NCBI GenBank assembly: GCA_950295325.1
Contig: OX485804.1
Location: 32,982,001-33,046,000, forward strand
Direction of reading: 5' to 3'
Length of the DNA: 64,000 bases
Source: Polytrichum commune
Lineage: Eukaryota > Streptophyta > Polytrichopsida > Polytrichales > Polytrichaceae
Part shown: positions 14,769 through 64,000 of the stretch, in pieces
Layout: every line of letters begins with the position of its first letter
How positions within the stretch are numbered: position 1 is the stretch's first letter
Translations under genes and position numbers: made by a program
The notes under the pieces: generated by a model
Seen by the model: the letters and a program-made list of their open reading frames with translations, nothing else
Told to the model about the DNA's origin: nothing
The model's database searches: none

Positions 14769-16655
14769 CTACCCCCAGGGGGTTTTGGTTGAGTCACCGA
14801 AAATGTTGTCCACCAAGCATTCACTGAGCGACAAGTTGGGCAGGTCAGGAAGATCGAACGGCGGTGGCGATGGAAGTGTGGGTATAGCATCGTCGTCCCA
14901 TCCACATGTATCCATGTCTTGAAGCTCAGGGCAAGGCTCCAACACTTTATCCCACGTCAAGGTCGTGTTGTTGTCAGCTGCATACGCCGAGTGATGGCCA
15001 TGGTGACTATTGTTGTTGTTGTAACTAATGTTGTTGAAATTGTTGAAATTGTTGTTGGTGGTGCAGTTGTCCGGCCAGAAGGAGGTAGGCGACCCTGCGT
15101 CAGTGGTGCTGCCCAGAAGATTCGCAGACGAAGTGCTGGACGACACCGGTGAGAATTCTTCCTTCAACCGAGTCATTGTGGAGGATGGCGGCTTGGTTAT
15201 CATAATACTCTGAAGCTCAGATTCGAAGACGAAGCTGCCTAACTCCGGTTTCACAAGATTGTCCAGCACTGAGGTTTCAATTGAGTCTTCGGAGGTGGTA
15301 GCAGCAGCAGCTCTGGTGTAGCCGCCATGATGGGGGCTCTTGTCCAACGAGTCTAAGTTGGAGCACTCTTGGCAGAAATCCTCCGGGCTGAATGTTTGGT
15401 TGTTGGGATGATGTAGTTGTTGTTGTTGTTGCAAAAACTGATGGTGATTATTTATTGAAGCCCCTCCTCCACCTCGCATGTGGTGATGATTTTGGTGAAT
15501 CTGCTGCTGTTGTGGTGGGTGATGGTTGTTGTTGTACTGATGGTGGTTGAGGGGTTGATGGTGGATGGAGATTTGGTGCATGGATCCACCGCCCTGTCTG
15601 TCTGCGTAAGGGCATTCGGCGCCGAGTTCGCAATCCATCACGGGAGCACGCAATCCTAACCCCCGTGTGGGATGCTGGAACAGCCCGGACGGCGGCATCT
15701 CGACCGGAACTGCGAAATTCGGTGCGAGCATCTCTACTGCAGAGGAGGAAGAATGTGTTGTTGTTGTTGTGGTCGGCGGCTGGAAATGATGATTATTCCC
15801 GAACTGCAAAGTCCGATGATCCGACCCGACGACGTTGCTGCACGACGACGATCGCAGTAGCGACGAGGAGCTAGCCACCGACGGGTTAGGCCGGTTGGAA
15901 AAGTTGGGAATGCGTACCGCATTCGAGGACGACAAGTTGATACAGTTGTTGTTGAAATTCCCGCTCCCACCGTTCATGTTGCAGGAAGACGATCGAAGTA
16001 AAGGCGGCGGCGGGTTAACCTTGACAGAGTGCATGGTCGACCCCAACAACGGATTATCTCGTGAATTCAGGTTCGAGGTCGAATTCGAAGTCGAGATCGC
16101 GGTCGCGCCCATTCCGCCGTAGTGGACCGAAATGTGTTCTGAGTTTGGGTACGCCGACTGCACCGAGCTGTTGGTGTCCGATTTGCGGTAGGCTTCGTTT
16201 GGGAGGTTAAGTCGTGCCCCCGGTCCGTGATAGACGAGAGCCGCCTCGTCGTAAGCTCGCGCGGCCTCCAACGCGGTGCCGAACGTCCCGAGCCACATTC
16301 GAGTGCGCAATCGCGGCTCTCGAATCTCGGCCACCCATCGGCCCCACTGTCGCTGTCTCACCCCGCGGTACTGGTGCATCCCATTCTCCGGGCCGCCTCG
16401 CCGACGACGAACTCGTTGTTGCTCGCCGCCCGACGTTGCACTTAACCCCCCGCCCGAGTCGCGACCCCGCTTCTTCCTCGTCGACTTGGAGTCGTCCGAC
16501 CCGCTCGTCGTGTGGGTGGTCGCCACTTCCGAGCTCGCACCGGAATCCTCCACCTTCGTCGTCGATGACGGCTTCTTGTCGATGATATCTTTCGATCCTG
16601 CTTCGCCCCCGCCGACCCCTACCTCCCGGGTTTTCTCTTCGCTGGTTTCTGTCAT
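14769..16655 (-). CDS. AP2/ERF transcription factor, DREB-type, 628 aa
   Basis: An uninterrupted 628-codon frame starts at ATG 16655. Residues about 96-153 form one AP2 domain ([19 protein letters not shown]...[21 protein letters not shown]...ARLNLPN). Val and Glu in WVAEIREP (the V14/E19 positions) place it in the DREB rather than the ERF subfamily; the preceding GGPEN is seen in DREB A-2/A-3 relatives. Basic clusters STRKKRGR (58-65) and RVRRRR (81-86) are probable nuclear signals. After the domain come long Asn/Ser, His/Gln and Asn-rich tracts, a [15 protein letters not shown] segment, and an acidic C-terminus ([19 protein letters not shown]...[13 protein letters not shown]) likely to activate transcription. 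It would bind DRE/GCC-like elements. It is much longer than most DREBs. The frame stays open upstream of the ATG to a splice acceptor, so a small N-terminal extension is possible. Confidence 0.92.
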
Positions 16656-16709
16656 TTCGGCAGCTGCTACCTTTACACCTGATGATGGTGTTACTGGATG
16701 GGGTGAAGT
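16656..16709 (-). other. 5' leader of the DREB exon with splice acceptor
   Basis: Read on the minus strand, a strong pyrimidine run and TCTCCCCTTAG end at 16710, followed by ACTTCACCCCATCCAGTAAC. The 18 codons from 16709 to the ATG are open in the main frame, but the AG itself makes an in-frame TAG, so the reading frame cannot extend further without splicing. This suggests a leader intron. Whether the 18 codons are translated is unknown. Confidence 0.5.
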
Positions 16710-19700
16710 CTAAGGGGAGAAAAAAATTTAAATAAAAATTCTTCCTCCTGATGTGATAAACTAAACTAAGCTAAACTAAGGGGAAATTCCCAATCATCTA
16801 ATGGTTTCTATGACATAAAATTCTTGCTGATGCTATTACAACAACAATCAGGGGGCACTCAATCTGCTACTTCCGAAGTCTGTCTGTCTGTCTGTCTGTC
16901 CGATCTCCAGGTCCAACATTCAAAGCTAGCAGGAAGACTTCTGTAATAGTCGAGGTTTGGATGATAATATGTTACTCGTAACGAGGGAGGAACTGCTAAA
17001 TGATCATCATGCGCGTAGTCTTGTTGTACTCAATTCATCATCTGAATCTGAATCTGAATCATCACTCTGCTCCCACACCAAGCCCCTATGAATTTTCACA
17101 CACCACACGACTCTATGATACTCCGCTGCCCACCTTGGGATCACATGCGCCATTGATCACTCACTTTGCAACTAGTAGACTTTCAACTCTCATTCCACTC
17201 ACATGATTCATGAACTTCATCATATTTCACAAACATCATAAAAATATGAATCTTTATATATGTATGTATGTATAGGTAGAGTTTCATCTTGATTAGAAAA
17301 TGATGATACATCATGAAACCACTTCCACTTACTTACCTCCTGGGGAATGATGCTTCAACTTTCCTAATTACCCCCAAAGTAACAAATCCTAACCCAAAGA
17401 GAAACATGTGAAATGTGTCAACTGTGTACACTATGTGTGTGTGTGTGTCATCAGCTGACAGAAAGAAGAATCCCACAAGCACGAGTTCGATCGACACGGA
17501 ACTCGCCACATACAACTTCATTCCCTTTCACATATTAGTACATATCTGCTACGTGGAGCCTAAGCTCAAGTTTTAGACATAAATTAATTCACATGTCACC
17601 AAGTTTCCCTTTTCTGCAACCATCAACTTCCCTTCCCTGCCAACCTTCCATATGAATACTTCCTTCCTGGACCAGGATCTTATATTATTTAACAACACAA
17701 CAAGAAGTCGGTATGGTTGCTATAAAACTTCATTCCATGAGCTGGCCACGGCCCACACACGACATTGCTAACTACGTTCTGGCGGTCGGCCGGGAACTTT
17801 TTAGAAATTCTCGCAACAAAAGTGGCAAACCTCCAGAACGCACCCACGTCAGTCAGTAGCATCAACAGGAAACCATTTTCTTCGTTAGTTTATCTTCAAC
17901 CTTTTAACGTCGGAACAGTGGTGATGTGGCCCATTCTAAAACCCCCTGAAACTCAAAAAAGGAAAGTTTCCTCCCCGGAGAAGTGCCACCCAGAAGGTCC
18001 ACATCCCGTGTTACCAATTTCGGAAGAATGTTTTTTCAGAATTCGAAGGGGTACACGCTTGGCAAATTACCCACTCAACTTACAAAATTACCCATATATT
18101 TATTTATTTATTATTATTATTTATTTATTCCGTATAATATTTGAGACAAAGACGATCTTTCTTAAACCAGGAACAAACAGAGAGAAAATTACAACACAAA
18201 TGACAACCCTGAAATGCTAGAATAAAACATAACAATTAATATTACTTACTAATTCATGGTACTTATATACCTATACACTTCAACTGGCTATATATGAAAA
18301 ATGTGAAGGAAGATAAAAGTGTTCATATTAGAGGTGATTGAACTGTACCGTGACCTCTTTTATGCAAGTGTGATCTGCATATATATATATATACATATAT
18401 ATATATATGAAGGGTGTTAACCCATACTTCCCTTTTGAAACCATCATCATCATCACTCAGAACCTTCAAGCTAAATTGATTGAATAGGTATGCAGAGTCA
18501 CATGGCAGGTGGGTCCTTGCAGAAGTACTTGACAGATATTTCCTCTGCGACGCATGACATCCAGATCAGATTAAACACTTGATTCTCGATCGGATATCTT
18601 AAAATATATCTCGACTATATTTCTCTCACAAGAATTTCTTCTGCACATGGCTAGCTAGTTACACTGCATCTCATCTCCTCTTCTACTGCCAGAGGCATGG
18701 TGGATTGAAACATGCTACTTGAAGAATTCATTTTTCCCTTCCGAGTTCTTTCTTTTACTTAGTCCGGTTATTGTTGTTACTTTATGACTCCAGGAAGGCA
18801 CACAAGTTTTGGAAACAAACATTCACCAAAAATATTTGTGGACACAAATTCTATACTACTTCCACACAGGAGTAAAGAAATTCCAAGAAGTAGAGACGAT
18901 GATTGAGTTTCTCTCCCACCAAAGATGCATCCCAAATTTAGAGCACAAGGAGAAGAATTATGCACCTCGCTCGACCAACCAGATACATCATGTCCTGTCA
19001 ATTTGGAGCAAAAAAGTGCGGGAGCCTTCAATACGGCGATCAGATAGCCAGGGATCAGAATTTATACCAACACTGCTAAGTCTCGACACACTTTCTTCTG
19101 GCTAGCTAGCTCTCCCGGAAACTAAAGGTGTGCCAGACTTTAGAATCACGGTGGACATTGAGTTTAATTTAGAGGAATCTGTTATGGCTGGTTATAAAGC
19201 TCGAGCTCATAACCGAGATATACAAAACCGAAAAAAAAAACAAGTGTCTGGTAGCTCCGAGATTTTTTTTAAAAACCGTTTCAGAAACAAAAATGAAATA
19301 ATTACCCAAACCGTGGCGCTGGAATATTTTTTCAGAACCTCTACAGAACCCAAGCAAAGCAAAGGAAGCCATGTGAAGAAAACTCACCGTAAAGCTGGCA
19401 AGTGATTTCCTCACAAGCTAGCCCTCCAAGCGACGACGAACCAACTCGTCCTCAACCTGCATACTCAAGAGTTTGGAAAAAAAACCGACTTGGCTCATAC
19501 TCAGATAAAAACTGTCAACATAATATGCAGGAAAAAAAATGGCAAGCTTCTCAGGGGGTTTCGACTTCAAGCAGGTTTCAGATACTAAACCACGAAGATC
19601 TGCAGAGCGTGACAGACGTGAATGTCTCAGCCTATGACCTACAGATATGTCCACCAAGTCTCCAACTTTTTTTTGCAGCTTTCGGTAGCTCACGAAATGT

Positions 19701-60814: not shown

Positions 60815-63571
60815 TTATTTGGCTAATGTCTGAATGATGGTTGTATGCAGAGGGTCAGAGAGATGGGTCATCAGATTTTCTATAGGACCAGTTTTGGTGA
60901 CGTAAGCCTGCACTATGAATCCCACCATTGCAACCATGGCGAGCCGGCCTGCACAATTATCAATGTCAAACATTAGAAACAAGGATCTAGCCAATGTCAT
61001 TTGCGAACTTGACCTTATTCCAAAACAAACGAAAATGAAGATAAGGACGCATTTAGGAGAGGTAAATTTTCATCCCTTGCACATGGATGGCAAAAGCAAG
61101 CCTACCTCGGTTACTTATTATAATTGGACACCTGTATTTGAGTGGTGTCTGGTTAAGTGTGGATCTAAGAACGGACACCAAAAGATGTGCTTATATACGA
61201 TTGGATTACGTGCCCAAAATTTGTTAACTAGCCTACATTTAAAAGTCTAGATATTTGGGGGAACCTGTGTGATCATTTAAGAAGAGAGTCTTCACTTTGA
61301 TAAGTGAATACAAGCTCCTGAAATTACGAGCCAAATGGCTATGGCCTCAATTTTCATTTGCTAATCATCTTGTAGTAATCATATGTTTATTATCCTAGGA
61401 GAAGTGGGCAAAAGCAACCATTTAAGACCCATCTACCTCAAAAACCACGACAATGGTTAGAAGTAAAAGTGATTGTGTTTAAATTTTCTTTTTTAAATTT
61501 CTAGCAGTACCTTGAACTCTTCCAGAAATGTAGCTCTTACCATTCTTGATCTCCCTCCACTTCATGGGTTGAGGTTTGGTTGGATTATTAGCAAAACCCA
61601 TTGGGTTAAATAAGGGACCACCAGGGTACCTGATCCACAAGGAAACGTGTTACTAACATCAAATGCCCATACATACTTGCTCACATATATTTTGATACTT
61701 CAAGAAATGCTCATCTAACACAAACCTAGGAGAAAAACAAAAATTTGCATCAGTGATTTCGGAAGTTGGAGGAAGTGTGCGGAGCATTGTACCCATTCTC
61801 CAAGCCTTCAAATGCCGCTTCGTAACCAAAAAAAGAGTCTTCTGCTGCTTGAGAACCAGGCGTGATAAAGTCCATCCACCTCTTTGTCTCCACAAATCTG
61901 CAATGCATCCATAGAACTGTAAAAATGAGCCCAAAGCTGACTTTGCTGTACACAATTTCATGGCTACAAATGACTCCCAAAAACTCATCTGTATCCTGCA
62001 GAACTGCAGTTTGAGCAGATAGGGCAACAAGCAGCTCCTATGTCATCCACAGCACCCCATTCGAGACAATTCAAGCATCAAATGAAAATGGCAGACTACA
62101 CTAAACATCTGATTTGATGTGGCCCATACTATTCATCATCAACCTACATTGGTTGCCTTGCAATCACCGGATGGCAACTAAAGAGGGTGTCACATGACAC
62201 TTTGGTGCTACATGACAAGTCATGAAGACCACTCTAATTGAGATGGCACACCAATTTAAATGTCAAACTAAATTGGATGTTTAGTGTAGTTATTACCGAG
62301 TCCAGAATTCCTTACCCCATTAAGATGAGCTGCACAAGGAAAAGACTTCTGGTGTCTGCAAAGTCGAAGTGATAGGCACCCGCTTCATACCACAGGGGAA
62401 TGTCTGTCCTCCCAGTGGCCCTCAACAGCTGCACAAAAACAAAAGTTCGTAAGTCAATAGGAGAAAGAGCACCTCACCTCAAGCTTGTGTCGACACCTTT
62501 TCATAGCAACACGAGAACTTTTGCTCTACTTGTTGGCATAACACAGCTTGCACTGTCTGCTTGCAACATTTTCCAACCACTGGCATACTTAAATACAATC
62601 TAATACTACATAATTCGTGCCGATACTTCAATTCAGACAACAGAGCTTCTTGAAAACTCATGGATTGTTGTAACTCAAAAAGAAGAGCTTCACTTTGCGC
62701 ATCAGAAGTGGTATTCAAAGTTTCACCCAAGGTTTTTTGACTAAATATGATAAAACCTCCAAAACTTAAAGCTAAAATAAATTCTTCATTAGCATATATA
62801 AAGATATAGTTTGAACTTAAAACACTACTTATTGTTGTCATGGGTGGTAAGTCCAATGAGGCAACTTGCTTGAAGTCTATTTGGGTGCTGATACTAAGAT
62901 TGGCCACAGAATCTGCTGAGAGTTTGGTTAACCGCAGTACAAGATTATCCAACAAAAAACCAAAATTGAATCCAATTCTAAATTGTTTTTGTCTACGACA
63001 ATGGTGCTTAACAGGAAATCATACATCTGTATAGAGGATGCCAGCAACACCCGCCATGGCAAAGCGAGCATGCACAAGCTCGGCCTGCACGTACCATCGG
63101 AGACTCTCAGGCTCTCGTCCAAGCTCCAAGGGATCGAATCCAAAATCACCTGGGAGCCTGCAAATCAGATGTGCATACCATTATTACGAGGACCTTAGCA
63201 GGTGTCAATTCCTCAATCCATGACCATAATGCTCTTGATGTACTAACATTGCTCGACTGCGGAATGATCCCTATCACATACTAGCCTCCAAAAAGAGGGA
63301 ATTATGCGGCTTCAGGTGCATTATCATCAAATTTGTCTCAAAGAATCAAATACAATGTGAACCTTCTTGCAAGACAGATGACAGAACCAACCCTATATGG
63401 AAGGAATTTAAATAAACTCATCAAGAAAATAATAATGCAGGTTGAAGATTCCAAACATCTCATACTATTCACTATTTCGAATTGTTAATCCTTTTAGAGT
63501 ACCATCCCCGCAATAAAGCTTTACATGAACCTGGTGAAATTTGGAGGGGTCAGAAACGTCCAAATCCATGC
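60815..63571 (-). CDS. Lhca5: Lhca5-type photosystem I chlorophyll a/b-binding protein (5' end unresolved)
   Basis: Five confident exons, last to first: 60815-60948, 61541-61629, 61793-61897, 62316-62428 and 63025-63157, all with GT/AG borders and matching phases. They encode [20 protein letters not shown]...[39 protein letters not shown]...[65 protein letters not shown]...WREIKN and [26 protein letters not shown]...[14 protein letters not shown]. The three LHC helices and their chlorophyll ligands (E..H.R, Q/E in helix 2, E..NGR) are intact. His rather than Asn at the helix-1 ligand, and the YVQAELVH...AGILYTD and ETKR signatures, point to Lhca5, a minor antenna that in angiosperms helps link PSI to the NDH complex. 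A further 41-nt exon at 63531-63571 ([13 protein letters not shown]) fits in phase but is doubtful; the transit-peptide exon was not found. Confidence 0.88.
61095..61440. mobile_element. Family B element in the last Lhca5 intron
   Basis: It lies between the exons ending 60948 and starting 61541. Landmarks: ACCTCGGTTACTTATTATAA, TTGGACACCTGTATTTGAGT, CTAAGAACGGACACC, TGGGGGAACCTGTGTGATCA, TTATCCTAGGAGAAGTGGGC and AACCATTTAAGACCCATCTA then CCTC. Confidence 0.7.
62096..62289. mobile_element. CTACACTAAA-family element in an Lhca5 intron
   Basis: A 194-bp element with a perfect 14-base inverted end, CTACACTAAACATC and GATGTTTAGTGTAG, inside the intron 61898-62315. The inner sequence differs from the 223-bp group (for example GGCAACTAAAGAGGGTGTCA), so it is a separate subfamily. 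An extra A/T pair outside makes 15 bases. Confidence 0.8.
62479..62841 (-). pseudogene. atp4: Mitochondrial atp4 (ATP synthase subunit 4)-derived insert, open frame, in Lhca5 intron
   Basis: A minus-strand frame from ATG 62841 to a stop at 62479 (120 aa) reads [53 protein letters not shown] then KYRHEL and [16 protein letters not shown]. This is the order of plant mitochondrial atp4 (formerly orf25), the membrane-anchored stalk subunit of the F0 ATP synthase. A block between KYRHEL and CKQTVQ appears shortened and the usual C-terminus is missing, against a family length near 190 aa. There is no internal stop; the frame stays open a further 38 codons upstream to 62955. It lies in the intron 62429-63024 and on the same strand as Lhca5. 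It is most likely a nuclear copy of mitochondrial DNA. Confidence 0.72.
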
Positions 63572-64000
63572 CTATCAGCGAAGAAAAGCAGTTTGATCCA
63601 AGACAAAGGGAACTTCTGCTCCTACTTAGATTGCACGAACGGAATATTGCTTGTCAAAAGAATCTCCTCTAGAATTTCCAACAATGATTTCCTCCGCATG
63701 CAATATCTTTGAACAATCTTGCCCTCCGAAGAGCCTATTCCCGGAGACTCTGCATTTTATATTTCTGACCTGAGAAGGCTTGATCACACTCACAAACACC
63801 CTCCACAACCTCTCATCCTTACAAGATTCCCATGCGCCCCAACCCAATCCAGAAACACTTTCGGGTCATTTTCACAAAGGAATCCTCCACCCAATGAGCG
63901 CAGGCTGCGGTAGAGCCTCAATTGCCGAATTGGCAAGCTTCCACTACCCACACATTGTTGCAAAGATTCCTCAGGACACCGTTCCAGAAGGTCAGTCTCC
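63158..64000 (-). other. 5' region of the Lhca5 gene, unresolved
   Basis: The missing N-terminal exon(s) should lie here or beyond the window edge. A candidate 41-nt exon at 63531-63571 is preceded by a pyrimidine tract (CTGCTTTTCTTCGCTGATAG) and followed by a GT. Frames between 63626 and 63990 (for example GDSFDKQYSVRAI) show no clear transit peptide. Confidence 0.35.

Follow-up and report, generated by a model that had tools for sequence, protein, structure and literature searches.

Does a stop-free reading frame derived from mitochondrial atp4, lodged in an intron of the nuclear photosystem gene Lhca5, mean that the mitochondrial DNA arrived recently or is retained for use, or can an old and non-coding insert come to look like this by chance? 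The first answer had been given in an earlier note on this locus, which reasoned that a dead insert of any age should collect stops. We favor the second, and consider it about 94% probable that the locus holds an ordinary old NUMT, the 5' part of atp4 in an Lhca5 intron, which is non-coding and whose frame was reopened by chance. The window is the whole stretch of DNA that was analysed, 64,000 nucleotides at C2:32982001-33046000 in an assembly totalling 408 Mb, and all coordinates are those of the window unless a contig is given. The features on which the argument turns are the following.

63025-63157, minus strand: Lhca5 exon that precedes the intron (LPGDFGFD...GILYTD), placed by protein matches
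62316-62428, minus strand: Lhca5 exon that follows the intron (LLRATGR...LILMG), placed by protein matches
62429-63024, minus strand: Lhca5 intron, 596 nt, GT-AG, phase 0 (GT at 63024/63023, AG at 62430/62429), borders placed by reading and by the matches of the flanking exons
62479-63018, minus strand: stop-free frame of 179 codons, NUMT included, from the open reading frame list
62827-63024, minus strand: 5' third of the intron, open in the insert's frame from 63018, absent (deleted) from the C6 fragment
62516-62826, minus strand: NUMT of about 103 codons from mitochondrial atp4, which relative to other copies has gained 3 nt and lost 36, identified by PF05405 and DNA matches
62429-62515, minus strand: 3' part of the intron, native acceptor included, common to the C6 fragment by comparison with it
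62270-63399, minus strand: region partly duplicated, in decayed form, at C6:15366133-15366865, where about 62759-63147 is missing

The host gene and its intron

A light-harvesting gene lies on the minus strand at the end of the window, with its start outside it. The joined exons matched PF00504 in Pfam (E = 4.7e-43), and among the best 60 of 173 PDB matches the top one was 6l35 chain 5 (6l35_5; E = 2e-109), from what we take to be a moss photosystem I structure, followed by 7ew6 chain 5 (7ew6_5), named Lhca5 (E = 3.7e-85). A search of the assembly with the Lhca5 protein gave 35 matches, among them the gene's own five exons. The non-self matches were at most 52% identical, save for an exon fragment on C6 that reached 70%, and the window gene is thus the sole Lhca5 found in the assembly. 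The host gene and the sense orientation proposed in the earlier note are confirmed by the minus-strand frame and by the match of the joined exons to Lhca5 chains, and its intron borders, 62429 and 63024, proved exact, being of the GT-AG type with Lhca5 exons adjoining both ends. Fourteen of the 35 protein matches, all of them without stops and at 38% identity, fall in C5:1751703-1846217 and form a light-harvesting gene cluster. The upstream Lhca5 intron contains repeats at 63661-63751 and at the positions equal to 64040-64130 and 64428-64518, which are spaced by 379 to 388 bp and are 68 to 84% alike.

The 62479-63018 frame, 179 codons long, is wholly intronic and sense to Lhca5. It shares its phase with the upstream exon, although the two are separated by a TGA, the second codon of the intron. 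Among the 11 stop-to-stop frames of at least 140 codons in the window it ranks third, and the two longer ones (646 and 187 codons) overlap one another at 14769-16770. Judged by the neutral simulations and shuffles described below, the openness of the frame is unusual only mildly. No match to the 179-codon frame was obtained in the PDB at E <= 1 or among phages, the open 5' stretch at 62827-63018 matched no Pfam family, and 62830-63024 had no second genomic match in the assembly.

Mitochondrial origin and extent of the insert

Residues 66 to 135 of the frame matched PF05405 (Mt_ATP-synt_B) with 42.2 bits and E = 8.7e-11 (cut-off, 21.7), which clearly exceeds chance. This significant protein match, together with DNA matches to other atp4 copies, establishes the suspected atp4 origin. 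The PF05405 match stops at profile position 72-73 of 163, so the atp4 coding sequence is incomplete and its C-terminal part is lost, as the earlier note had read from the letters. The internal shortening that it described is also real, corresponding to a 36-nt loss of a stretch that is present in the copy at C2:13209598-13212855. Its remark that mitochondrial DNA gives the intron its bulk needs correction: the recognisable atp4 segment (62516-62826), which ends at 62516 and lacks the internal 36 nt, accounts for about half the intron's length.

The insert thus shows similarity to a mitochondrial gene (PF05405) within nuclear flanks, C2 being a 70-Mb contig and an Lhca5 exon lying on either side. 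A further property of NUMTs, evolution without coding constraint, is indicated by the substitutions and by a frame that was apparently broken and reopened, with the caveat that the related C6 copy has four frame-breaking indels more than the window copy, all of which is described below. The complete atp4 coding sequence that a functional transfer would have brought is absent.

Other atp4 copies and the reference for comparison

Fragments of atp4 are numerous in this assembly. With the copy at C2:13209598-13212855 as query, at least 15 matching places were found, including the window, the query itself and the C6 relic. Two more were added by searches with the window intron (C6:10758612) and with the junction (C1:9162036), giving at least 17 places, i.e., at least 16 besides the window, spread over C1-C7, all these counts being lower bounds. 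The C2:13209598-13212855 copy begins, by reading, at an ATG and contains one TGA, and its translation gave weak PDB matches to mitochondrial subunit b chains (best E = 0.01). Because the stretch upstream of it matched FAF1 (E = 1.2e-17), this copy apparently also lies in an intron, that of a FAF1-domain gene; the two stretches downstream of it matched no Pfam family.

No plant mitochondrial DNA was recognised in the assembly, where COX1 matches were confined to C9 and to C2, C3, C4, C6 and C7. C9 (67,364 bp) was considered as plant mitochondrial DNA and rejected, as it has a fungal look, with long frames mostly on one strand and many LAGLIDADG- and GIY-YIG-like intron frames. It is probably the mitochondrial genome of an associated or contaminating fungus. 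By reading, it contains cox1, cox2, atp6, nad5, nad6, nad1 and rRNAs, with profile support in the form of COX1 and ATP-synt_A matches. Since C9 is of fungal appearance and plant mitochondrial DNA was not recognised, the ancestor of the insert was represented by the consensus of the nuclear fragments.

A shared relic on C6 and the age of the insert

The fragment at C6:15366133-15366865 comprises 733 bases and includes the insert's 3' part together with the same acceptor and the exon that follows, which implies that the insertion predates the copying to C6. Between the window and C6, 35 of 243 sites (14.4%) differ in the insert, compared with 29 of 238 (12.2%) in the upstream intron, 10 of 81 (12.3%) in the 3' part of the insert-bearing intron, 2 of 45 (4.4%) at the start of the next, downstream intron and 9 of 113 (8.0%) in the exon. 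The NUMT is therefore diverging no slower than the flanking introns. Plant nuclear substitution rates are near 7-9e-9 per site and year, and as a rough guide only this would place the copying to C6 roughly 7-10 million years ago, with an older insertion. The insert is old, since it is common to the decayed C6 fragment and has moved 12.6% away from the consensus of the other copies.

Indels and an apparently broken frame

At one and the same place in the insert, 32 nt of atp4 are missing from the C6 copy and 36 nt from the window copy. The whole stretch is retained in the C2:13209598-13212855 copy, and the fragment at C1:9162036-9162086 crosses its right-hand end. The four bases that C6 kept and the window lost are present also in C6:10758612 and C1:9162036, and their presence in two further fragments indicates that they are original and were lost from the window copy. 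When the four bases are restored, the window frame hits a TAA at once, at the junction. Most simply, these alignments suggest one common 32-nt loss that, its length not being divisible by three, would have broken the frame, followed by a 4-nt loss in the window that would have reopened it. An alternative history with two separate losses is possible, if less simple. Under either of them, the frame is not guarded throughout. The C6 insert carries four further frame-breaking indels (+1, -2, +1 and +1), and the window insert none besides the 4-nt loss; relative to the other copies, the net indels of the window are +3 and -36, and the frame is kept.

Substitutions and neutral expectation

Compared with the consensus of other atp4 copies, the window insert has 39 substitutions in 309 sites (12.6%), with 11, 11 and 17 at the first, second and third codon positions, and a dN/dS of 0.70; this consensus was built from decayed copies, and one of its stop codons was forced to the window state, which favors openness. 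The 25 amino-acid changes observed are to be compared with 26.4 +/- 2.5 in 50,000 neutral simulations, 14.7% of which stayed open across the atp4 part with substitutions only and no indels. Two alternative consensus rules, the products of which carried stops or masked changes common to C6, gave dN/dS values of 0.75 and 0.56; under them the frame stayed open with probabilities of 0.011 and 0.050, which are low because the consensus itself contains stops. The earliest consensus, which gave 50 differences and changed codons of which 9 were silent and 33 were not, was discarded because the C2:13209598-13212855 copy had been aligned beyond its end.

The changes since copying to C6 could also be polarised, over 243 sites, into 13 in the window and 18 in C6, leaving 4 unpolarised. 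The window has somewhat fewer, which is far from a clear difference. The consensus comparison gave 18 window-only changes, and the polarised count of 13 is lower because it omits tied sites and those at which the window state is favored by the other copies. Within these small numbers, the substitutions show no constraint. The step from an open frame to a young or retained insert, taken in the earlier note, does not hold here: the insert is old (shared with C6 and 12.6% from the consensus), its substitutions look neutral, and its frame was apparently broken and then reopened.

Origin of the open frame and alternative explanations

The history of this old NUMT may be sketched as follows. A piece of mitochondrial DNA with the 5' part of atp4 would have been joined into the Lhca5 intron, most likely during double-strand break repair. 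The insert would then have lost about 32 nt internally, bringing a stop into frame, and acquired several base changes, all before the copying of part of the locus to C6, an order suggested by the features common to both copies. The C6 copy would have decayed further, and the window copy would have lost four more bases, which in the simplest reading rejoined the frame by chance. The insert would now be transcribed with Lhca5, spliced out as part of the intron and code for nothing.

The insert could instead be retained as an alternative Lhca5 exon, bringing an atp4-derived stretch into a minor isoform or acting as a poison exon. This would fit the 179 open codons, which are in phase with the upstream exon past the first two intron codons, and the absence of the four frame-breaking indels of C6 from the window copy. 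It would also fit the unrelated 64 codons of the 5' intron part, which are open in the same frame and stay open in only 0.014 of single-base shuffles; this proportion and the indel contrast with C6 were both noted post hoc, in a case picked for being open. One phase-0 acceptor/donor pair lies above loose consensus thresholds (62673/62496, 177 nt), but it is weak, with a GAG acceptor and a donor that has 6 of 9 consensus bases, and the donor with the highest score (62477, 7 of 9) does not lie in phase. Such an exon would also have to be reconciled with an insert that diverges at least as much as the flanking introns and has as many amino-acid changes as neutral sequence, and with a frame that was apparently broken by the 32-nt loss when the window and C6 copies separated. 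Its product would probably disturb the Lhca fold into which it was inserted. We consider retention very unlikely on these grounds. That an alternative or regulatory Lhca5 exon is in the making, the chance 4-nt loss having created a 179-codon frame that a minor transcript uses, is similarly doubtful in the extreme.

The remaining explanations are less probable still. An insertion too recent for decay would account for the open frame, but hardly for the 12.6% distance from the consensus of the other copies, themselves decayed, nor for its presence in the C6 relic, from which the insert is 14.4% apart, and it is scarcely credible. An assembly chimera of mitochondrial and nuclear contigs, raised in the earlier note as a way in which the finding might fail, is extremely improbable, because the sequence of the piece departs from that of the other copies and because the insert, its acceptor and its flanks are common to the C6 fragment; moreover, both intron borders run into Lhca5 exons. 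As for a leftover of a functional atp4 transfer to the nucleus, the additional open 5' stretch is a candidate mimic of a presequence, but the C-terminal part is absent, an internal piece is lost, and many other fragments are equally partial, which leaves this origin with a negligible likelihood. The old, non-coding NUMT remains our preferred explanation.

Comparison with known insertions

In Arabidopsis and rice, about 25% of NUMTs and NUPTs lie within genes, mostly in introns or untranslated regions, and some have supplied exons, according to a review (PMC7037861). The window insert resembles these within-gene NUMTs in being a short, diverged fragment of mitochondrial DNA in a gene and one of many, and differs in that no stop interrupts its frame across the entire atp4 part and further on, apparently by chance. 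Given the predominance of introns and untranslated regions reported there, it represents a fresh example of a known phenomenon. With organelle-derived exons (Noutsos et al. 2007, as cited in PMC7037861) it shares organelle DNA, a nuclear gene and an open frame, but here the substitutions look neutral and only one, weak phase-0 splice pair is predicted. As in functional mitochondrion-to-nucleus transfer, the source is a mitochondrial respiratory gene, but only part of atp4 is present, with an internal loss and no gene structure of its own seen.

Our literature search found no paper combining Lhca5, intron and NUMT. If the frame were used, a photosystem I antenna gene would have received part of its sequence from the mitochondrion. 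More generally, the locus illustrates how weakly an open frame in an insert of organelle origin speaks for youth or use, and the window and C6 copies form a small natural clock of NUMT decay in a moss-like genome. The Lhca5 match and the presence of seven large contigs, C1-C7, would be in keeping with a moss.

Other organellar sequences in the assembly

As a control, other mitochondrial genes were considered, and 3 of 9 cox1 matches outside C9 (with 4 more on C9) and 6 of 10 cox3 matches were without a stop, in lists restricted to fragments still findable by protein profile and hence biased towards open ones. Two stop-free cox3 stretches at C7:17066862-17068482 jointly cover COX3 profile positions 1-257 of 258, and this pair is perhaps a younger, larger mitochondrial insertion. 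An open ATP-synt_A frame of 255 aa is found at C8:57388-57987, and no COX1 or COX3 match was listed on that contig; it is possible that C8 represents the plastid genome and that its ATP-synt_A frame is atpI.
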